Origin: Salidesulfovibrio onnuriiensis
GTDB lineage: Bacteria; Desulfobacterota; Desulfovibrionia; Desulfovibrionales; Desulfovibrionaceae
DNA: 64,000 nt
Direction: 5' to 3'
NCBI RefSeq assembly: GCF_008001235.1
Contig: NZ_CP040751.1
Coordinates: forward strand, 3,723,501-3,787,500
Both the position numbers and the translations under genes were made by a program. The notes below the pieces were generated by a model that was not told the origin of the DNA, did no database searches, and saw nothing but the letters and a program-made list of their open reading frames with translations. Shown here piece after piece: positions 16,334 to 27,797 of this stretch; the stretch's first letter is position 1; every line of letters begins with the position of its first letter.

Positions 16334-16872
16334 TATCTTTCCTGTGTTTCGATGGTCAGGTTGGCGTTGGTGTAGACGCAAAGGTCCGCGGCGATGTTCA
16401 TGGCCTTTTCCACGATGTCGCGGGCCTGCATCTCCGTGTTCTGCTTGAGCGCGCGGGCCGCTGCCAGGGCATAGGCCCCGCCCGAGCCGATGGCTGCCAG
16501 GCCGTCGTCGGGCTCGATCACGTCGCCCGTGCCGGAGATGATCAGCAGGTGTTCGCCGTCGGCGGCCAGGAGCATGGCCTCGAGCCTGCGCAGGTACTTG
16601 TCCGTGCGCCAGTCCTTGGCCAGTTCCACTGCGGCGCGCAGCAGGTTGCCGGAATAGGTTTCCAGTTTCTTTTCAAAACGTTCGGACAGGGTGAAGGCGT
16701 CGGCGGTTGCGCCCGCGAATCCCACGGTGACCTTGTCCTTGTAGATCTTGCGCACCTTGCGGGCCGTGTGCTTCATGGCGATGGCCTGGCCCAGGGTGAC
16801 CTGTCCGTCACCGGCCATGGCCGTGCCGTTCTCGTCCAGCATGGCCAGAATGGTGGTTCCTCTAAGGTTCAT
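16333..16872 (-). CDS. hslV: ATP-dependent protease peptidase subunit HslV
   Basis: 179 residues, full length. Threonine peptidase of the HslUV proteasome-like complex. The sequence begins [10 protein letters not shown], so the catalytic threonine would be exposed after removal of a five-residue propeptide (T6). The family segments [11 protein letters not shown] and [18 protein letters not shown] are clear. The stop shares a base with the hslU start, and the 5' end overlaps the 3' end of the unknown gene upstream by about 11 bp. Confidence 0.97.
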
Positions 16873-17455
16873 ATGTTCCTCTTGAGACTGAAAGGTTCAC
16901 GTCAACGTTGCTAATGGAAGTAGCAACAAATCTGTAGTCCTTGTAAAAGAAAGGAGATCCTATTGTTTCAGTAAATTCTTTTCTTGGCCCATCAATAGTG
17001 GAGTAGAAGTAGCCTTGGACTAAAGGGGTTTTCATGTCCATCCCCCCAGCTGTGTAACAACTTTGAATCCGTATAACGACTTTGCCGTTATCGTATTTTC
17101 TCTCTGTACCATTTAGGATATTAGTATCTTCTGACTTGATTATTCTATAATGCAAATCCTGTTCACCATATGAAGCTAGTTTTGATTTGAGATCTTTGAT
17201 TGTTTTAGCGTATTCATTAGATAAATCTAACAACTTTCCATTACGAGCATGGACGCTTTCATATTTTTTTTCGAGCGTTGAATAATCCTTCTCAACTAAT
17301 TTCAACCGGCTAATTTCATTATCTTTAGTCTCTACAACCGTTGCCGAAGGACAAGGATTTAATGTTGGATACGAACAGTAACCAACGCTCATTACCCCCA
17401 AAATTCCAGAAACGTAACCGATCACTTTCAAAAATGATTTAAAAAAACTACCCAT
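16862..17455 (-). CDS. Membrane-anchored coiled-coil protein of unknown function, AT-rich
   Basis: 197 residues, not recognised. The first 30 residues form one membrane segment ([23 protein letters not shown]) that could be a signal anchor or end in a lipidated cysteine. Residues about 40-95 are a charged, probable coiled coil ([22 protein letters not shown]). The C-terminal 100 residues look like a small beta domain. Base composition is far lower in GC than hslVU and the macro-domain gene, yet the gene overlaps both neighbours (TAATG at its start, 11 bp at its end). This fits a transferred gene captured into the operon. Confidence 0.7.
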
Positions 17456-18076: not shown

Positions 18077-18110
18077 TTGACATCTATATTGCATATTCAA
18101 TAAGTATAGT
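18077..18110 (+). promoter_or_regulatory. Candidate promoter of the PDT-peptide operon
   Basis: AT-rich stretch with TTGACA at 18077-18082 and TAAGTATAGT at 18101-18110; an 18-base spacer gives TAAGTA as the -10 element, an imperfect match. It precedes an AGGAGG ribosome site at 18131-18136. Confidence 0.4.
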
Positions 18111-18141
18111 TGTAATAGTTATAATTCCTGAGGAGGCTCGT

Positions 18142-18321
18142 ATGGAAATGCGCAAGGTGATTCCCTCTGTCGAAGAACTGATGACCGCCATCGCCAACAC
18201 TCCCGACACCAAGGTGCCCGATACCCGCATCCCGGACACCCGGTGCCCCGACACCTTTGTGCCGGATACCCGCACGCCGGACACCTTTGTCCCGGACACG
18301 CGCGTACCGGGACGTTTATAG
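18142..18321 (+). CDS. Small peptide with seven Pro-Asp-Thr pentapeptide repeats; candidate RiPP precursor
   Basis: 59 residues, with a perfect AGGAGG site six bases before its ATG. Residues 1-19 (MEMRKVIPSVEELMTAIAN) look like a helical leader. Residues 20-54 are seven units of five residues, x-P-D-T-[K/R/F], with Thr at 23, 28, 33, 38, 43, 48 and 53, then VPGRL. One cysteine (C35). The gene is followed after 27 bp by a LanM-type dehydratase/kinase domain, so the regularly spaced threonines are the obvious modification sites (dehydration to dehydrobutyrine or phosphorylation). No double-glycine leader end, transporter or protease is nearby. Precursor role is inference from pairing and composition. 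Confidence 0.7.
   Translation: MEMRKVIPSVEELMTAIANTPDTKVPDTRIPDTRCPDTFVPDTRTPDTFVPDTRVPGRL
18202..18312 (+). repeat. 15-bp tandem repeats encoding x-P-D-T-x
   Basis: About seven 15-bp units around CCSGAYACC with third-position variation between copies, so protein-level selection on the Pro-Asp-Thr unit is more likely than recent DNA duplication. Confidence 0.8.
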
Positions 18322-18348
18322 CTTCGGGCGGTTCAGGAACAGCCGGTT

Positions 18349-19890
18349 TTGACCGGTTTTGAATTCCGCCCCCTGTATTCGCCCATGCTCTTGCATTCGG
18401 ACGACTTTCTTTTTCCCCGAACCCTCGACTCCCTGGCCACCGGGTGCGTCATGGGTATCTGCGCCCAATGGCCTCTGCTGTGGAAGAACGGGAACCAGAA
18501 CATGCTGGCCCGGGCCATTGCCCGCCGCCTTGCCCCGGTGCTGAACATGGCCCTGGCCGTGGAGATGGCCGAGGCCCGTGAAAACGGGCTGCTCAAGGCC
18601 GACACACCGGAAGGCCGCTACCACGAATTCGACGAGATGCTGGCCTCCCGCCGCCTGCAGGATGTCCTGCTGGACAAGTACAAGGGCCTTTCCTCCCTGC
18701 CGTGGTCCGTGGTCTCGGACTGGAGCTTCGAGTTCGACGCCATGCTGCGGCGGCTCAGGAATGACGCCACGGACATCGGCGACTGTCTGGGCATCCCGTG
18801 CGGCCTGGGCGGACTCGCGGGCATGGAGGCCGACTGCGCGGACCTGCACGAGGGCGGCGCGGGCGTCTGCATGCTGCATTTCCACGACGGCAAGCGCCTG
18901 GTTTACAAGCCCCGGCCCATGGCCGCGGACGTGCTTTTCGCCCGGCTGGCGCCCCAGCTCAATGCCGAGCTGGGCTGGCAGGCCTATCAGGGCCCGGCCA
19001 CCTTGGACATGGGGCCCTATGGCTGGCAGCAGTTCATCGAGCGCACGCCCTGTGAAAACATGGAGGACGTACGCCTGTTCTTCCAGCGGCAGGGGGCCAA
19101 CCTGGCGCTGGTGTACCTGCTGGGCGGGGTGGACTTCCATGCCGAAAACATGGTGCCGTCCGAAAGCTTCCCCGTCCCCGTGGACCTGGAAACCGCCATG
19201 CAGCCGCTGCGCACGGGGGTGCACACCCTGAGGCGTTCGGGCATGGTGCCGGTTCCGGGGCGCGACTACGACTATTCGGCCCTGGGCTGTGCGCCCGCCC
19301 CGGACGGCAGCTTCAAGGGATTCGTCTGGCGCGACCGGGGCAGGGATTCCCTGCACATGGAGCTGGCCGAACTGCCCTGCACGGGGCCATACTGCCTGCC
19401 GTTCCTGGACGGCGAGCACGTGCCCGTATGCGGGTTCGAGATGACGGTGGCCGCCTCTTTTGCCCGCACCCTGAAGACCCTGGCCCAGGCATTCGAAACC
19501 AACCGGGATCTCATGGACACCGTAGCCGAAATGCCCATCCGGTTCATCCACCGGCCCACCCTGGTCTACCAGGAGATCCTGACCGCCTCCCTGCACCCGG
19601 AAAACCTGCGCAGCATGGAAGGCCGCCGCGAATTCATCGAAACCCAGCTGGGGCTGCTCGGCCCGGAAACGCCCGCCCAGCTCTTCGGGCATGAGGCCGA
19701 TACCCTGGAGGAAGGGTATATCCCCACCTGCCACACCCGTGCAGATTCCCGCGACCTGTGGTTCGGAGCGGCCATAGAGGACGACTTTTTCCCGGCCACC
19801 ACGCTGGACCAGATCCGGGTCCGCGTCCGCGAAGCGCCCGTGAGCTGCGGTCGGCTGCGCCAATCGCTGTTGGCAAGCCTCGGCTCATAG
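18349..19890 (+). CDS. Stand-alone LanM-type (DUF4135) lanthipeptide dehydratase/kinase domain without cyclase
   Basis: 513 residues from TTG with AGGAAC nine bases upstream (an in-frame ATG at 18385 is the alternative). The central motifs match the lipid-kinase-like dehydratase half of class II lanthipeptide synthetases: K187 in RLVYKPRPM, the catalytic loop D262-F-H264-A-E-N267 in LGGVDFHAENMV, and the metal-binding D279-L-E281 in PVPVDLETAM. The usual C-terminal LanC zinc cyclase is absent; the protein stops where the dehydratase ends and is somewhat shorter than a typical LanM dehydratase half. It follows the PDT-repeat peptide by 27 bp. The likely reaction is ATP-dependent phosphorylation of Thr, with or without elimination to dehydrobutyrine. 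Confidence 0.8.
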   Translation: MTGFEFRPLYSPMLLHSDDFLFPRTLDSLATGCVMGICAQWPLLWKNGNQNMLARAIARRLAPVLNMALAVEMAEARENGLLKADTPEGRYHEFDEMLASRRLQDVLLDKYKGLSSLPWSVVSDWSFEFDAMLRRLRNDATDIGDCLGIPCGLGGLAGMEADCADLHEGGAGVCMLHFHDGKRLVYKPRPMAADVLFARLAPQLNAELGWQAYQGPATLDMGPYGWQQFIERTPCENMEDVRLFFQRQGANLALVYLLGGVDFHAENMVPSESFPVPVDLETAMQPLRTGVHTLRRSGMVPVPGRDYDYSALGCAPAPDGSFKGFVWRDRGRDSLHMELAELPCTGPYCLPFLDGEHVPVCGFEMTVAASFARTLKTLAQAFETNRDLMDTVAEMPIRFIHRPTLVYQEILTASLHPENLRSMEGRREFIETQLGLLGPETPAQLFGHEADTLEEGYIPTCHTRADSRDLWFGAAIEDDFFPATTLDQIRVRVREAPVSCGRLRQSLLASLGS

Positions 19891-21459: not shown

Positions 21460-22371
21460 CTACAGTCCGCAGCTCCCTTCGGAGTGCGCGAAGCGCTTCA
21501 TGACCTCGATGAACAGGGACAGGGCCAGGGAGTCGTCCCCGCGCCGCCAGACCAGGCGCAGCTCGCTCATGGGAGGATCCTGGGGCCAGCGGAACGGCAT
21601 CATCTTCACGCTGCGGGGGCAGGACTGCTCCATGCGCAGGGGCACGAAGCTCACCCCCATGCCCGCAGCCACCAGGGCCAGGCGGGTCTGATGCGTGTCC
21701 GCCTCCTGCACAATGCTCGGGGTGGCGCCCCGCTCCTCAAACATATGCATGATGGCGGTCCAGGTTTCCGGATAGCACTCGCGCGGCGGCATGATCAGGG
21801 TCTCGCTGTGCAGGGCCGCGAACCCCACATGGCTGCACTTGGCCAGCTTGTGGTCCTCGCGCAGGGCCAGGACATAGGGATCGAGCATGAAGGTCATCCA
21901 CTCCAGATCCCTGAAATCGGCGGTGCCTCCCTGCACGATACAGGCGTCCAGCTCGTCGACCCGGAGCAGGGCAAGGGATTTGTCCGAATGGATATCCTGG
22001 ATGTCCAGGGTGATGCTCGGATGCTTCTTCCGAAACTCGGCCACCGCATCCGGAAAGTTGGACTGGGACGCGGAATTGATGAACCCGATGCGCAGCTTGC
22101 CGATCTCGCCACGGGCCATCATGCGGATCTGTTCGGTGCCCGAATTGAGCGTATCCAGCGTGTTGCGGGCAACGGTCAGGAACTGGAGGCCCTCGCGGGT
22201 CAGCTTCACGCTCCGCTTGGTGCGGTTGAAAAGCATGACGCCCAGGTCTTCCTCCAGCTTCTTGATCTGCTGGCTCAATGGAGGCTGGGCCATATGCAGC
22301 CTGTCGGCGGCCCGGCCAAAGTGCTTTTCCTCGGCCACGGCGATGAAATAACGCAGTTGTCGGAGTTCCAT
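21460..22371 (-). CDS. LysR-family transcription regulator (1 of 5)
   Basis: 303 residues. Winged helix-turn-helix at 1-60 (MELRQLRYFIAVAEEKHFGRAADRL, AQPPLSQQIKKLEEDLG), then a periplasmic-binding-like effector domain starting at LRIGFINSASQSNFP. Very similar to the LysR genes at 23152 and 24176, pointing to local duplication. Divergent from the small membrane protein gene at 22484 across 112 bp, so that gene is its most likely target. Effector unknown. Confidence 0.93.
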   Translation of the reverse strand: MELRQLRYFIAVAEEKHFGRAADRLHMAQPPLSQQIKKLEEDLGVMLFNRTKRSVKLTREGLQFLTVARNTLDTLNSGTEQIRMMARGEIGKLRIGFINSASQSNFPDAVAEFRKKHPSITLDIQDIHSDKSLALLRVDELDACIVQGGTADFRDLEWMTFMLDPYVLALREDHKLAKCSHVGFAALHSETLIMPPRECYPETWTAIMHMFEERGATPSIVQEADTHQTRLALVAAGMGVSFVPLRMEQSCPRSVKMMPFRWPQDPPMSELRLVWRRGDDSLALSLFIEVMKRFAHSEGSCGL

Positions 22372-22408
22372 AATATTTTTTTCGTCTCAGAATAGAATTC
22401 AATCCGTA

Positions 22409-22437
22409 TTGGACAAACCATATTCCCTGGCCATAAT
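22409..22437 (+). promoter_or_regulatory. Promoter of small membrane protein A
   Basis: TTGGAC at 22409-22414, 17-base spacer, CATAAT at 22432-22437. The TATTGGAC box recurs 5' of the sibling genes in this island and at 25158 with an equally spaced CATACT. Confidence 0.6.
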
Positions 22438-22483
22438 TGGACCAAACGCGCCGGAAAAGGCGCATCCAAACATGGAGGTCCCT

Positions 22484-22654
22484 ATGCACTATACATGGTA
22501 TGATGTCGAGAAGGAAATGCTTCGGGAAATACACGCCAATGCACGCTTTTCCGCTGAAGAGCGTCCGGCCCCGGGCATGGACCTGGCCACTTTCGCCAGG
22601 GCCGCGGTCATCCTGACCATCGTGCTGGCGTTTGCCATCCCGGCCATGGTCTAG
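22484..22654 (+). CDS. Small single-span membrane protein A
   Basis: 56 residues from ATG with TGGAGG upstream. A charged N-terminal helix (YTWYDVEKEMLREIHANARF) is followed by one C-terminal membrane span (FARAAVILTIVLAFAIPAMV). The N-terminal pattern Y-x-[LW]-[FY]-[ED]-[LV]-[EQ]-x(4)-[EQ]-I-x-x-N is shared with the proteins at 22893 and 25245, so the three form a local family. No known function. Divergent from LysR1, which probably controls it. Confidence 0.72.
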   Translation: MHYTWYDVEKEMLREIHANARFSAEERPAPGMDLATFARAAVILTIVLAFAIPAMV

Positions 22655-22658
22655 CAGG

Positions 22659-22698
22659 CAAAAGCCCCCTGTCCGGGCCCCGGAAAAGAGGCTTTTCG
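22659..22698 (+). terminator. Possible terminator after small protein A
   Basis: AAAAGCC ... GGCTTTT arms around a GC-rich loop; the stem is short, so this is tentative. Confidence 0.4.
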
Positions 22699-22892
22699 GT
22701 CCTTGCAAGGAGGAAAAAAACGGTGTCGATACGAAAAAAACAAAGAAAATAACGCAGCAAATTTTACGGAACGAGCAATTAATATCTTTTTCGTATTAGA
22801 ATTGAATAAAAATTGTATTGGACTCTTTCGCATACCGAACCTAGACGGAGTTCCAACACGACGCCGAAAGGCATAAATGAGGAGCCACCACC

Positions 22893-23060
22893 ATGCAATA
22901 TAGTCTCTTTGAACTGCAAAACAACATTGAGCAGGAAATCCGCGACAACGCCTCCAGCCACACCCGGCTGGAAAGCGTTCAGGCCACCGCCATCGGCGTG
23001 GGCCTGCGCATCGCCACCCTGGCCGTACTGGCCGTGTTCATGTTGCCCCTGTCTTTCTAG
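22893..23060 (+). CDS. Small single-span membrane protein B
   Basis: 55 residues from ATG with GAGGAG nine bases upstream; not part of a long open frame, so easily missed. N-terminus QYSLFELQNNIEQEIRDNA, then one membrane span (GLRIATLAVLAVFMLPLSF). Clearly related to the small proteins at 22484 and 25245. A TTGGAC box at 22818-22823, 75 bp upstream, fits the -35 position seen for its siblings, though the -10 (CTAGAC) is weak. Convergent with LysR2, with a strong terminator between. Confidence 0.7.
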   Translation: MQYSLFELQNNIEQEIRDNASSHTRLESVQATAIGVGLRIATLAVLAVFMLPLSF

Positions 23061-23095
23061 AAAAATTCACTCCAACGGATTTTTCAAACATGCAC

Positions 23096-23128
23096 GAAAA
23101 GGCCCGGTCCAATGGACCGGGCCTTTTC
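23096..23128. terminator. Bidirectional terminator between small protein B and LysR2
   Basis: Perfect arms AAAAGGCCCGGTCC and GGACCGGGCCTTTT around a three-base loop. Confidence 0.9.
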
Positions 23129-23151
23129 ACTTGCACAGCCCCGTTTCGGGG

Positions 23152-24063
23152 TCATGAATTGGTACAGGCACAACTCCTGCCGAATTCCTTGATGACCTTG
23201 AAAAAACTCATCTGGGCGCAGGTCTGCCCCGAATACTTCCAGGCCAAGCGCAACTCACTTACAAGCGGCTCATCCTTCCAGTCGAAGGGAAGCATGACAA
23301 CGTTGGCCGGACAAACCTGCTGCATCCTGCGCGGCACCAGACCCACCCCCATTCCCGTGGCAATAAGCGCCAGCTTGGTCTGCAGGGTTTCCGATTCCTG
23401 CACGATGTTGGGGATGACTCCGGCCCGCTCGAACCGGGCGATGATGGTGTCGTAGGTTGTGGGATGGTGGTCACGGGGATACATGATGAAATCCTGCCCA
23501 TGCAGCATGGATATGTCCGCAACCGGAACGGATGCCAGAGGATGCCGCTCGCGCACGGCAAGCATATAGGGATCCTTCCAGAAGGAATGACTTTCGAACC
23601 CGGAGATTTGACTCTGGAAAAACTGCATCACCCCGGCATCCAGCTCTCCCCTGACAAGGGCATCGTACTGCTGAAGGGAGTGCATCTCACGCAGATCCAA
23701 TATGATTTCGGGATGCCGCCGACGGAAGTAAGCCACCATCTTTGGAAAATCAGAGTGGGCTGCCGAGGCGATGAATCCCACGCGCAGCCTGGCTTTTTCT
23801 CCCCGGGCCATCATGCGCACCTTGTTCACCCCCTCTTCCATGTCGGAAATGGTCTTGCGCACTGTACCGGCAAAAGCCCGACCTTCCTTGGTCAACTCCA
23901 CCTTGCGGCTGGTACGCATGAAAAGCTGGACCCCCATCTCCTCTTCCAGCCTCTTGATCTGCTGGCTAATCGGAGGCTGGGCCATACCAAGCTTTTCAGC
24001 CGCACGGCCAAAATGCTCTTCATCCGCCACTGCCAAGAAATATCGAAGCTGTCTGAGTTCCAT
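23152..24063 (-). CDS. LysR-family transcription regulator (2 of 5)
   Basis: 303 residues, same architecture as LysR1: helix-turn-helix MELRQLRYFLAVADEEHFGRAAEKLG with AQPPISQQIKRLEEEMG, effector domain from LRVGFIASAAHSDFP. Near-identical first 25 residues to LysR1 and LysR3 show a shared recent ancestor. Its upstream 112 bp holds no divergent gene, because LysR3 ends there; a TATTGAACC box at about 24163-24171 resembles the island's common box. Its nearest small protein (B) is convergent, so its target is uncertain. Confidence 0.92.
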   Translation of the reverse strand: MELRQLRYFLAVADEEHFGRAAEKLGMAQPPISQQIKRLEEEMGVQLFMRTSRKVELTKEGRAFAGTVRKTISDMEEGVNKVRMMARGEKARLRVGFIASAAHSDFPKMVAYFRRRHPEIILDLREMHSLQQYDALVRGELDAGVMQFFQSQISGFESHSFWKDPYMLAVRERHPLASVPVADISMLHGQDFIMYPRDHHPTTYDTIIARFERAGVIPNIVQESETLQTKLALIATGMGVGLVPRRMQQVCPANVVMLPFDWKDEPLVSELRLAWKYSGQTCAQMSFFKVIKEFGRSCACTNS

Positions 24064-24175
24064 GGAGCACGAGAGGTTGAGGTGATACTACTGAAGGCCT
24101 GATACCTCAAAACACCACTAAATGCACAATACAGTTTTCGTCTCGCTGAATAACGAAAAGCGTATTGAACCCGGA

Positions 24176-25093
24176 TCAGCCGCAGATATGGCAGGTCTTG
24201 CCTTCCTGGCAGTGGGCCTTCATCACCTCGATGAAACAGGCCAGCGCAGGGGGAACCTCCCCATCCCTCCAGATCAGCTTGACGTCGCTGGTCCCCTTGT
24301 GCTCGCCCCATAGATGCGGAATGAGCCTCACGCCGGGCGGGCAGGCCCGCTGCATGCGCTGGGGCACAAAGCCAACTCCCATGCCTGCCGAAATGAGGGC
24401 CAGCTTGGTCTGGTGGGTTCCGGCCTCCTGCACGATGTTGGGCTGAATGCCCTTGTTGTGGAACCGGGCAATGGTCTTGTCGTAGGAGGCGGGATAAAAC
24501 TCGCGCGGGAACATGATCAGATCCTCGCCGTGCAGATCCTCGTCCCGGGAACTCTCCTGCCGGGCGATGGGATGATCCTCGTGCACGGCCAGCACATACT
24601 CTTCGCTCAGAAAGGTCAGCCAGTCGAACCCCGCCATATTGGCGCAACAGCTGTGCACCAGACCGGCATCCAACTCTCCCTCGAGCACGGCTGCGCGCTG
24701 AAGGTGGGAATGCATCTCGCGGATATCCAGGGTAATGCCCGGGTGCAGCCTGCGGAATTCGGCCACCACCCCCGGCAGCTTGGACTGGGAAGCGGAATTG
24801 ATGAACCCCACCCGAAGCCTGCCGATCTCGCCCCGGGCCATGCGCTTGACCTGCTCCACCCCGCAACTGAGATTCTCCAGGGTATTGCGCGCCACGCACA
24901 GGAACTTGCGCCCCTCCGGAGTCAGCCGCACCCGGCGGTTGGAGCGGTCGAACAGCAGCACGCCCATCTCCTCCTCCAGCTTCTTGATCTGCTGGCTCAG
25001 CGGCGGCTGGGCTATGTACAGCTTCTCGGCGGCGCGCCCGAAATGCAATTCCTCGGCCACGGCAATGAAATACCTGAGTTGCCTGAGTTCCAT
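24176..25093 (-). CDS. LysR-family transcription regulator (3 of 5)
   Basis: 305 residues. Helix-turn-helix MELRQLRYFIAVAEELHFGRAAEKLY and AQPPLSQQIKKLEEEMG; effector domain from LRVGFINSASQSKLPG. Closest to LysR1, sharing GEIG(K/R)LR(I/V)GFINSASQS. It is cysteine-rich near its C-terminus (CHICG). Divergent from small protein C at 25245, its likely target. Confidence 0.93.
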   Translation of the reverse strand: MELRQLRYFIAVAEELHFGRAAEKLYIAQPPLSQQIKKLEEEMGVLLFDRSNRRVRLTPEGRKFLCVARNTLENLSCGVEQVKRMARGEIGRLRVGFINSASQSKLPGVVAEFRRLHPGITLDIREMHSHLQRAAVLEGELDAGLVHSCCANMAGFDWLTFLSEEYVLAVHEDHPIARQESSRDEDLHGEDLIMFPREFYPASYDKTIARFHNKGIQPNIVQEAGTHQTKLALISAGMGVGFVPQRMQRACPPGVRLIPHLWGEHKGTSDVKLIWRDGEVPPALACFIEVMKAHCQEGKTCHICG

Positions 25094-25157
25094 GGCATTC
25101 CCTCTTTAAACGACCTTCTCGATACGAAAAAGATATCGACTTCTGATTTTATATGTA

Positions 25158-25186
25158 TTGGACATATCGTTTTTCCTGGTCATACT
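25158..25186 (+). promoter_or_regulatory. Promoter of small membrane protein C
   Basis: TTGGAC at 25158-25163, 17-base spacer, CATACT at 25181-25186; same layout as the promoter at 22409. Confidence 0.6.
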
Positions 25187-25244
25187 AGCAGGAAAAGAGG
25201 TTTGCAAGTTTCATCATATATTCAGACAAGCCGGGAGAATGACC

Positions 25245-25499
25245 ATGAATGACAGCCTGTATGAACTGGAAAAGCGCGTTTACGAGGAAATTCGCAGAAA
25301 CTCCGGCGCAACCGGCCGCAAGGACCCGGGATACGATGCAGCCAACACCCTGCGGGCCCTGGTCCTGCTCGGGTCCATCTGCATGGCCATGCTGGGCATG
25401 TGCGAACTCAAGAATATCGTAACCGACAACGTGCAGGCGACAACGGTTTCAACAGCGGGACCTATGACCGCTGAGAAAGTTTCTTGGCCTCGTCAATGA
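25245..25499 (+). CDS. Small membrane protein C
   Basis: 84 residues from the ATG at 25245 (GGGAG seven bases upstream; an ATG two codons earlier is also possible). N-terminus NDSLYELEKRVYEEIRRNSG matches small protein B, followed by a membrane span (ALVLLGSICMAMLGMCEL) and a 33-residue tail missing from its siblings. The 3' end overlaps the 3' end of LysR4 by 38 bp, so the tail may have arisen by read-through into that gene. Function unknown. Confidence 0.68.
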   Translation: MNDSLYELEKRVYEEIRRNSGATGRKDPGYDAANTLRALVLLGSICMAMLGMCELKNIVTDNVQATTVSTAGPMTAEKVSWPRQ

Positions 25500-26352
25500 A
25501 ATTCGCCACAAGCGGGGACGCACCCTGTTTCCAGATCAGTGAAATGCGCACTTCCATGAGGTTGTCCGCGGGATCGATGGGAACAAAGGAAACCTCATGG
25601 CCGCAAAGCCTGCTGCTCATGGCCGGAACCAGGGCGAACCCCACTCCGGCGGCAACCAGAGCCAGGGTCGTCTGTTTGGTCCGCGCGTTCTGTACTATTT
25701 CCGGCGTGGCGCCCAGCCGGCTGAACGTACCGAGGATTTCATCGTAAATCCCGGGATGCCCGCTGCGTTCGAAAAACACCATGGGCTCGCCGTCAAGTTC
25801 CCCGAGGCTGGCCATGCCCCTTCCGTCCAGGGCGTGTCCCCTGGGAACGGCCAGCACATACGGCTCGCGTAAGAACGGGAATGACTCAAACTCCCTGTCC
25901 ATGCCGCAGCTACGCACAAGAGCTATATCCAGGCTGCCGTCGTGCAGCAGGTGGCGCATGTTGCGGCTGTTGAACTCTGCAAGCTCGATGGTGATTTCAG
26001 GATACTTGTCCTTAAAGCGTTTGATCACCTGGGGGAACTGGCTTTGCGTGGCAGCCGGTATGAAACCGATGGCAAGCCGCCCGATCCTGCCCTCGCGCAT
26101 GCCTTCCAGAGAAGTTTTCGCAATATCGAGCTTATGCAGCACCTCCTCGGCAACCCCCAGGAGATACTTGCCTTCCGCCGTGAGACTGACACCGTGCCTC
26201 TCGCGCACGAAAAGCCTGACCCCGAGCTCCTCTTCCAGGTTCTTGATCTGGCGGCTCAGGGGCGGCTGAGCGATATGCACCCGTTCGGCAGCCCGGGTAA
26301 AGCTCGCCTCTTCGGCCACTGCCAGGAAATATTTCAGCTGTCTCAGTTCCAT
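25462..26352 (-). CDS. LysR-family transcription regulator (4 of 5)
   Basis: 296 residues. Helix-turn-helix MELRQLKYFLAVAEEASFTRAAERVH, AQPPLSRQIKNLEEELG; effector domain from LAIGFIPAATQSQFP. More distant from LysR1-3 than they are from each other. Divergent from the carboxymuconolactone-decarboxylase-family gene at 26464 (112 bp between starts), which is its likely target, with an ATATTGTACATATAT sequence between them. Confidence 0.93.
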   Translation of the reverse strand: MELRQLKYFLAVAEEASFTRAAERVHIAQPPLSRQIKNLEEELGVRLFVRERHGVSLTAEGKYLLGVAEEVLHKLDIAKTSLEGMREGRIGRLAIGFIPAATQSQFPQVIKRFKDKYPEITIELAEFNSRNMRHLLHDGSLDIALVRSCGMDREFESFPFLREPYVLAVPRGHALDGRGMASLGELDGEPMVFFERSGHPGIYDEILGTFSRLGATPEIVQNARTKQTTLALVAAGVGFALVPAMSSRLCGHEVSFVPIDPADNLMEVRISLIWKQGASPLVANFIDEAKKLSQRS

Positions 26353-26463
26353 TCACACCCCGCCTATACCTCAAAGGTATTCAGTCCTGTTCTAAAATAT
26401 ATTGTACATATATCTAAATCCACGAGATACAGTTTTGCATCAACCCATGCAAGGAGAAATGCA

Positions 26464-26859
26464 ATGACCAATGAACGGTATGAACGAGGCTTGGAAAAAC
26501 TCAGGGAAGTGGACGGCCATGCGGCCAAGGCGGTCATGGAGGCGCTCGAGGACGTGGCCCCGGACCTGGCGACCTACATGATCGAATTCGGTTTCGGCGA
26601 AATCTATTCCCGGCCCGGCCTGACGCTCAAGGAACGGGAGATTGCCACGGTGGCCGCCCTGACCGCCCTGGGCAACGCCGCCCCGCAGCTCAAGGTGCAC
26701 ACGCACGCGGCCCTGAACGTGGGCTGCACCTGGCGGGAGATCATCGAGGTCATGATCCAGATGTCCGCCTACGCGGGCTTCCCCGCCGCGCTCAACGGCA
26801 TTTTCGCGGCCAAGGAGGTTTTCGTGGAACGGGGTCTGCTCAAAGGCAATCAAGAATAG
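26464..26859 (+). CDS. Carboxymuconolactone decarboxylase family protein
   Basis: 131 residues from ATG with AAGGAGA upstream. One CMD/AhpD-like helical domain: PDLATYMIEFGFGEIYSRPGL, LKEREIATVAALTALGNAAPQLKVHTHAALNVGCTWREIIEVMIQ, then YAGFPAALNGIFAAKEVF. The paired CxxC of AhpD peroxidases is absent (only one Cys), so it is closer to the decarboxylase/unknown branch than to alkylhydroperoxidase. Probable target of LysR4, convergent with LysR5. Substrate unknown. Confidence 0.88.
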   Translation: MTNERYERGLEKLREVDGHAAKAVMEALEDVAPDLATYMIEFGFGEIYSRPGLTLKEREIATVAALTALGNAAPQLKVHTHAALNVGCTWREIIEVMIQMSAYAGFPAALNGIFAAKEVFVERGLLKGNQE

Positions 26860-26909
26860 GAACTCCGCACCCGCCGTGCGGTCCAAAGCGTGCGTTTTCC
26901 ATCCCCCGG

Positions 26910-27797
26910 CTAGACGCGGCGGTAGCGCTCGATGACCTCGAAAAAGCGGTCGAGAATGGGCCCCTCGGCCGCTTCGGACCAGCCCATGGTGATCTCCCAG
27001 GAGGGGAGCTCGCCCACCACCGGAACAAAGGAAACGCCCCGCAACCGGCTCTTGCGCGAAAATCGGGCCACCAGGGCGCAACCCAGCCCGGCGGCCACCA
27101 GGGCCATGGAGGTCTGTTCGGTGTTGGCCTCCTGGACAATGTTCGGGCTGAACCCGGCCTGATGGAAACAGGCGATGGTGGCGTCGAAAAGCTGCGGCTC
27201 CAGATGGCGGGGATAGAGAATGAGCGGCTCGTCCCTGAGCTCGGAAAGGGGCACGGATTCCAGGGCCGAAAACCGGTGTCCCTCGGGAACGGCCAGCATG
27301 TAGGTATCGCTGACGAACAAGCGGGTCCGGAACTCGCTGGCGTCGTGGCCGAAGAGCCGCATGAAGGCAACGTCGATACGGCCCGAACGCAGCATGCGCA
27401 GCTGGTCGCGGGTGGAGGCCGAGGTCAGGTCCAGGCGGATGCCGGGGTTCTGCTCCCGGAACTCCCGGATGGCTTCGGGCAGCACACTGAGGGCGGCGGG
27501 CCCCAGAAAACCAATGGACAGGTTGCCTTCCCCGCCATGGGCCATGTTCCGCACGCGCTCCACGGCCCGGTCCAGCCCGGCCAGGACCTTGCGCGCCTCG
27601 TCCAGGAAGAGCTCTCCCTCCGAGGTCAGCCCGACCTTGCGGCTGGTGCGCTCAAGAAGTCTGATCCCCAGCTCGTCCTCCAGTTGGCGGATCTGCTGGC
27701 TCAGGGGCGGCTGGGCAATATGCAGCCGCCGGGCGGCCCGCCCGAAATGCAGCTCCTCGGCCACGGCAACAAAGTACTTCAAGTGTCTCAGTTCCAT
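26910..27797 (-). CDS. LysR-family transcription regulator (5 of 5)
   Basis: 295 residues. Helix-turn-helix MELRHLKYFVAVAEELHFGRAARRLH, AQPPLSQQIRQLEDELG; effector domain from LSIGFLGPAALSVLPEA. Its start codon lies against a perfect 11-bp inverted repeat at 27796-27824, suggesting autoregulation. There is no divergent gene next to it; the upstream TATTGGAC box (27837-27844) faces an empty 350-bp region, as if a small partner gene had been lost. Confidence 0.93.
   Translation of the reverse strand: MELRHLKYFVAVAEELHFGRAARRLHIAQPPLSQQIRQLEDELGIRLLERTSRKVGLTSEGELFLDEARKVLAGLDRAVERVRNMAHGGEGNLSIGFLGPAALSVLPEAIREFREQNPGIRLDLTSASTRDQLRMLRSGRIDVAFMRLFGHDASEFRTRLFVSDTYMLAVPEGHRFSALESVPLSELRDEPLILYPRHLEPQLFDATIACFHQAGFSPNIVQEANTEQTSMALVAAGLGCALVARFSRKSRLRGVSFVPVVGELPSWEITMGWSEAAEGPILDRFFEVIERYRRV

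Follow-up and report, generated by a model that had tools for sequence, protein, structure and literature searches.

A PDT-repeat peptide gene paired with a stand-alone LanM-type dehydratase in Salidesulfovibrio onnuriiensis, a probable two-gene cassette for a linear modified peptide

The closest described relative of the locus reported here is the phospeptin pathway (EmbA/EmbM) of 'Ca. Eudoremicrobium malaspinii' (PMC9259500, PMC9505594; 2022), in which one precursor is served by a sole maturase, a LanM dehydration domain without a cyclase, and the linear product is modified on Thr. In the class II enzyme CylM, residues K274, D347, H349, N352, and D364 were assigned to phosphorylation and D252, H254, R506, and T512 to elimination (PMC4550811), and the excised dehydration domains of CylM, HalM2, and NukM were active without the cyclase (PMC10676384). 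A LanM-like dehydration domain was also found in an azole-type cluster of Synechococcus (PMC10783134). Here, a 64,000-bp stretch of the Salidesulfovibrio onnuriiensis genome (contig NZ_CP040751.1, positions 3,723,501 to 3,787,500; hereafter the window) was analyzed. A gene for a 59-residue peptide with seven Pro-Asp-Thr (PDT) units was found beside a gene for a stand-alone LanM-type dehydratase of 513 aa, and the pair is probably a self-contained cassette for a ribosomally synthesized and post-translationally modified peptide (RiPP). The same pair, in the same order and at the same site, was present in an uncultured Desulfovibrio (genome G307; locus L002, the single contig G307:C1), whereas the genome of the window is referred to as G000. 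In searches of open-licence literature, neither a PDT-repeat precursor nor such a pair in Desulfovibrio was described in the titles or the openings of abstracts that were listed.

The peptide gene was located at 18142..18321 on the forward strand, which carries all features of the pair described below. The encoded sequence is MEMRKVIPSVEELMTAIAN(TPDTK VPDTR IPDTR CPDTF VPDTR TPDTF VPDTR)VPGRL. An earlier note, made from the letters of this stretch alone, had described seven evenly spaced PDT units behind a strong ribosome-binding site, and both were confirmed: the seven units follow an exact 5-residue period, and the sequence GAGGAGG lies 5 bases before the ATG (18130..18136) and is conserved in L002. 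When the residues of the peptide were shuffled 200,000 times, the maximum PDT count was 4, which was reached once. No other exact tripeptide repeated at least four times at a fixed period of 3–12 was found in the six frames of the window (stop-to-stop, at least 40 codons), besides the array's own antisense. Residues 1–20 (18142..18201) form a leader-like part that has VIPxVEEL in common with L002 and lacks a Gly-Gly motif; residues 21–59 (18202..18318), with the seven PDTxx units and the PGRL end, form the putative core. The peptide had no Pfam match up to an E value of 0.1 and no GG in its sequence, and it does not carry a leader of the Nif11 type.

The enzyme gene (18349..19890) begins with a TTG codon after an intergenic gap of 27 bp. 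The start is uncertain, since the L002 frame opens 8 residues later than the TTG and an alternative ATG lies at 18385. Pfam analysis revealed a DUF4135 (PF13575) match with an E value of 2.7e-66, covering enzyme residues 120–461, and no match to LANC_like (PF05147). The earlier note's LanM kinase/dehydratase without a LanC part was thus borne out, and the absence of a DUF4135 match, which the note had named as one way for its proposal to fail, was not observed. The NCBIfam LanM model TIGR03897 was matched over positions 31–501 of 932, about half of the model; the score, 274 bits, lies below the cut-off of 304. The solved relatives found by sequence were LicM2 (6st5, E 1e-32) and CylM (5dzt, E 2.6e-15), which matched across the dehydratase part.

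For a comparison of the active site, nine DUF4135 proteins were aligned, namely the window enzyme, the L002 enzyme, six LanM-length proteins (1015–1129 aa), and L006, a stand-alone protein of 510 aa from genome G243. All nine catalytic residues of CylM were retained in the window enzyme (phosphorylation: K187, D262, H264, N267, and D279; elimination: D165, H167, R398, and T404) and in the L002 enzyme (9/9). Five of the six LanM-length proteins also retained all nine, and the sixth (L060) had Ser at the position of T512. L006 retained the five phosphorylation residues and R506 and had lost D252, H254, and T512. The LanM-length relatives were about 23–30% identical to the window enzyme.

Comparison of the two pairs showed that the L002 enzyme shared 66% identity with the window enzyme and that the L002 peptide had 54 residues with six PDT units. 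The PDT units are under selection, because all 13 units of the two peptides were intact and their P, D, and T codons differed at third positions only; in the codons of the xx residues, differences were also found at first and second positions. For the core, synonymous (dS) and nonsynonymous (dN) divergence were 1.07 and 0.15 over 34 codons (dN/dS 0.14), and for the enzyme 0.84 and 0.25 over 505 codons (dN/dS about 0.29). All six aligned PDT Thr residues were kept in L002, and the window peptide's four remaining Ser/Thr residues (S9, T15, T20, and T45) were not. A short precursor-like gene conserved beside a modifying enzyme, the general mark of a RiPP locus, was found in two genomes. The earlier note had also made its proposal depend on the presence of the pair in related genomes; it was present in G307, although in only 2 of the 36 genomes of the genus.

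No LANC_like match was found in G000 itself or in any of the genomes G307, G295, and G243 (0/3), of which G243 is only 69% complete; in a control set, one of 14 genomes gave a match. The only Cys of the window peptide, Cys35, lies in the core and has no counterpart in L002, whose peptide has a Cys in the front part and none in the core. Lanthionine rings, which the earlier note had considered hardly possible with a single Cys, are nearly excluded on these two grounds, the missing LanC match and the unconserved Cys. Of the marks of a class II lanthipeptide locus, the DUF4135 domain with the CylM residues was present, while LanC, a conserved core Cys for (methyl)lanthionine, and a TIGR03897 score over the cut-off were lacking. 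Fourteen neighbor proteins between 10.3 and 29.9 kb, which are not every open reading frame of that part, were run against Pfam; four of them matched nothing at all or nothing that passed the cut-off. No exporter or peptidase was named among the 14, in agreement with the note, and no other modifying enzyme, including a YcaO/dehydrogenase pair, was recognized among them; the enzyme itself had no class III cyclase fusion. Four C39-peptidase matches were found in the own genome, all outside the window. Because neither an exporter nor a peptidase or Gly-Gly site was recognized near the pair, a role inside the cell or the use of a remote exporter is possible.

According to the interpretation that we favor, with a probability of roughly 0.6, the two genes form a self-contained RiPP cassette that makes a linear peptide carrying at most seven Asp-dehydrobutyrine units. 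The 59-aa peptide would be the precursor, with residues 1–20 as the leader recognized by the enzyme and residues 21–59 as the PDTxx core. The 513-aa enzyme would phosphorylate the Thr of each PDT unit with ATP, and the phosphate would be eliminated in the same active site to give dehydrobutyrine (Dhb). The product would consist of up to seven Pro-Asp-Dhb-(Arg/Phe/Lys)-(Val/Ile/Thr/Cys) units, and it would stay linear because the enzyme has no LanC domain, the genome has no LanC match, and there is no conserved Cys.

Several points weigh against this interpretation. An Asp directly preceding every Thr is not the setting expected to favor dehydration. The pair is known from two genomes only, which gives few independent comparisons, and neither an exporter nor a protease or Gly-Gly site was found near it. 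The leader-like part (dS 0.33, dN 0.36, 20 codons) showed no constraint overall, despite the common VIPxVEEL. The AlphaFold model of the enzyme, made from a two-row alignment, had a predicted local distance difference test score (pLDDT) of 31; therefore, the fold assignment rests on sequence. The DUF4135 half of CcaM, the carnazolamide enzyme, was inactive without its cyclase half (PMC10676384). For phospeptin, dehydration was predicted and not found; the product was di-phosphorylated, which fits the mutated key residues of its maturase (PMC9259500, PMC9505594). Phospeptin warns that homology alone can mispredict a product.

The earlier note had proposed two products, a linear peptide with several dehydrobutyrines and a repeated phospho-Thr array, and the first now appears the most likely. 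The second would arise if the enzyme only phosphorylated; a linear peptide would then carry as many as seven phospho-Thr residues beside Asp, perhaps for metal binding, since Asp-phosphoThr pairs would make good ligands, or for protease inhibition. Phospeptin shows that the same gene architecture can yield a phosphorylated product despite a predicted dehydration, a product that inhibited neutrophil elastase (PMC9259500). However, whereas key dehydration residues are mutated in the phospeptin maturase, the four elimination residues are retained here in both genomes, and the distant stand-alone L006 has lost three of four. Because these four CylM residues are retained, phosphorylation without elimination is the less likely outcome, though it stands as the strongest competitor of the dehydrated product. 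If elimination does take place, the dehydrobutyrines could also be intermediates: their capture in trans by a small thiol (sulfide, for instance), by Arg/Lys, or by another peptide would give a conjugate or a cross-linked polymer. Desulfovibrio relatives produce sulfide, and neither a LanC match nor an internal Cys that is conserved would compete for the alkenes; however, dehydrobutyrine is a poor Michael acceptor and no gene for a second step was recognized beside the pair, and we consider such capture rather improbable.

Two further explanations would do without a modified peptide product. The pair could be the decaying remnant of a LanM cluster that has lost LanC, transporter, and protease and has no working product, as the lack of a recognized transporter, protease, or immunity gene nearby and its confinement to two genomes of the genus might suggest. 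This is already disfavored by the selection pattern and is very unlikely: neither frame is broken in either of the two lineages, whose enzymes are 66% identical, the dN/dS values are about 0.29 (enzyme) and 0.14 (core), and the upstream segment and the ribosome site are conserved. The peptide could instead act alone, perhaps by regulating the enzyme or serving as its chaperone, while the enzyme modifies other proteins. In Clostridium acetobutylicum, a LanM-like protein without lanthipeptide partners is a quorum-sensing effector (PMC10301443); that protein, however, lacks the conserved catalytic residues that the window enzyme retains. If the peptide is not the substrate, it is hard to see why seven Thr residues next to an enzyme of a Thr-modifying type should be under selection, and there is little chance that this explanation holds.

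A scan of 84,980 species genomes, which used short conserved query stretches so that distant pairs may escape, returned two loci: L002 and, in Pedobacter, L003, whose protein has LanM length (1084 aa). The enzyme search in 348 genomes of the class gave three matches, in G000, G307, and G243 (27% identity over part of the protein). DUF4135 was detected in one of 395 sampled genomes of the phylum, the own genome; this sample misses some carriers, as G307 and G243 also have DUF4135. In plasmids, 186 records had relatives of the enzyme, all below 60% identity (22.8–30.1% among the 20 matches listed), and the five examined were proteins of 1015–1129 aa. A phage search with the enzyme gave one match (22% identity), and no relative was confirmed in viral contigs (0/28 and 0/36 candidate stretches). 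Neither PADLOC nor PHROGs gave a result, and a mobile origin was set aside. The peptide matched four plasmid records (E 6e-6 to 5e-3).

A profile of the peptide, searched at E ≤ 0.01 against the 348 class genomes, gave 36 matches in 28 genomes. Two were kept, and the 34 others lay in 26 genomes (E 8.8e-7 to 0.0099). Ten of these loci (L009–L018) were checked for paired P-[DE]-[ST] units, which occurred to some degree in four and not at all in six; the remaining 24 matches were set aside on weak scores alone. The best look-alike, L009 (genome G086, about 1501–1578), was a near-identical 15-bp minisatellite in an Arg/Pro-rich frame with PDTRG units. Its DNA units are near-identical, unlike the codon-varied PDT units of the two peptides, and no enzyme relative was found in G086 in the class enzyme search. 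The minisatellite suggests how a PDT array could arise.

Another of the ten checked loci, L016, lies in G243, where the distant DUF4135 protein is on another contig. The gene for the latter (L006:689-2221, reverse strand; 510 aa) has a neighbor protein that matches SPASM weakly, below the cut-off, and in which a CxxxCxxC-like motif was seen by eye. Also beside it, a 110-aa peptide that contains a Gly-Gly and ends in a Cys/Gly-rich part is encoded at L064:3655-3987 (reverse strand). The G243 DUF4135 protein may be a kinase of the phospeptin kind, accompanied by a second modification.

In both genomes, the pair is flanked on one side by a macro-domain gene, followed by genes that we take to be hslV and hslU (labeled by eye, without a family search), and on the other side by an aldehyde dehydrogenase gene. 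These neighbors appear to be ordinary genes, unconnected with the pair. Around the macro gene, 30 loci of the genus were obtained (30 of 35 matched genomes), of which two carried the pair. In G295 (L051/L065), the macro and aldehyde dehydrogenase genes lie about 190 bp apart, between the aligned parts, and the pair is absent. In the tree of the 30 loci based on HslV and the macro protein, G000 and G307 were sisters (support 0.91) and G295 came next (0.95). Most simply, the pair was gained once, in the common ancestor of G000 and G307, with loss elsewhere as the alternative. A 197-aa protein (16862-17455, reverse strand), encoded between the hslV-like and macro genes, had no Pfam match over the cut-off, and L002, L065 (G295), and 29 of the 30 genus loci gave no match to it. 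Farther on, five LysR-type regulators lie within about 6.3 kb (21460-27797, reverse strand).

Upstream of the peptide gene, a promoter-like segment (18077..18104) is largely identical in L002. It consists of TTGACA (18077-18082), the palindrome-like TATTG-N6-CAATA (18087-18102), and AATAAG (18099-18104), and the palindrome could be a repressor site between putative promoter boxes. A generic promoter scan reported no site at 18077..18104. The 17-mer at 18086-18102 had no further match in the own genome at 0–2 mismatches. Membership in a known regulon was rejected, as the only two other sites in that genome each carry 3 mismatches and no regulator could be named. Within the genus, the 79-bp upstream stretch was found beyond G000 in G307 only (E 1.7e-10), and scraps of 18–25 bases (E 0.46–0.86) occurred in seven genomes. 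A possible RNA hairpin (18326..18371) spans the intergenic gap and the enzyme's TTG codon; the folding signal is weak (z -2.23, 4 of 200 shuffles as good). Such a hairpin could keep the enzyme below the level of the peptide.

Beyond the favored linear product, a further-reaching proposal is that the pair is the first two-gene, elimination-competent, cyclase-free LanM system, in which a single dehydratase converts a periodic peptide to a linear poly-(Pro-Asp-dehydrobutyrine) rod; the rod would remain in the cell, and its regular Asp/alkene arrays would trap metals or sulfide. We hold this to be rather doubtful. If true, the pair would stand beside phospeptin as its dehydrated counterpart, with an enzyme that naturally writes dehydrobutyrine into a simple consensus repeat. 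The favored interpretation, if true, would mean that selection can keep a LanM dehydratase with one peptide and without a cyclase while both steps stay intact, something that phospeptin did not demonstrate. The PDT consensus repeat would then be a very simple substrate for the study of Thr choice by LanM dehydratases and for the making of dehydrobutyrine-rich peptides, and the pair is a rare lead in this phylum.

Among other known systems, the dehydrazoles made by LanMbC enzymes (carnazolamide) resemble the pair in that DUF4135 dehydration gives dehydroamino acids and a product without lanthionine rings. In that system, only a Ser preceding an azole is acted on and a YcaO partner takes part (PMC10676384); neither was recognized at the window pair, nor was the dehydrogenase or the class III cyclase fusion that also mark a dehydrazole locus. 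The CA_C0082-type LanM-like proteins of Clostridium are likewise LanM relatives without other lanthipeptide genes; they are Agr-linked, their cyclase domain lacks the zinc residues, and their dehydratase lacks the conserved catalytic residues (PMC10301443). With class II LanM enzymes (CylM, LicM2), the window enzyme shares the dehydratase domain with its nine catalytic residues, but it differs in having no LanC half, no conserved core Cys in its partner peptide, and a TIGR03897 score below the cut-off. The phospeptin precursor has no Cys and carries a Nif11-type leader with a Gly-Gly site, and a repeat core is not mentioned in the parts of the two reports that describe it (PMC9259500, PMC9505594). 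Compared with phospeptin, the locus described here retains the elimination residues, has no Gly-Gly, and has a selected core of 6–7 repeated PDT units. The new RiPP class suggested by the earlier note goes too far, and no wholly new class is claimed, because phospeptin already has the same architecture of one precursor and one cyclase-less LanM domain. To judge by its sequence, the pair is apparently an elimination-competent, repeat-core relative of the phospeptin-like architecture.
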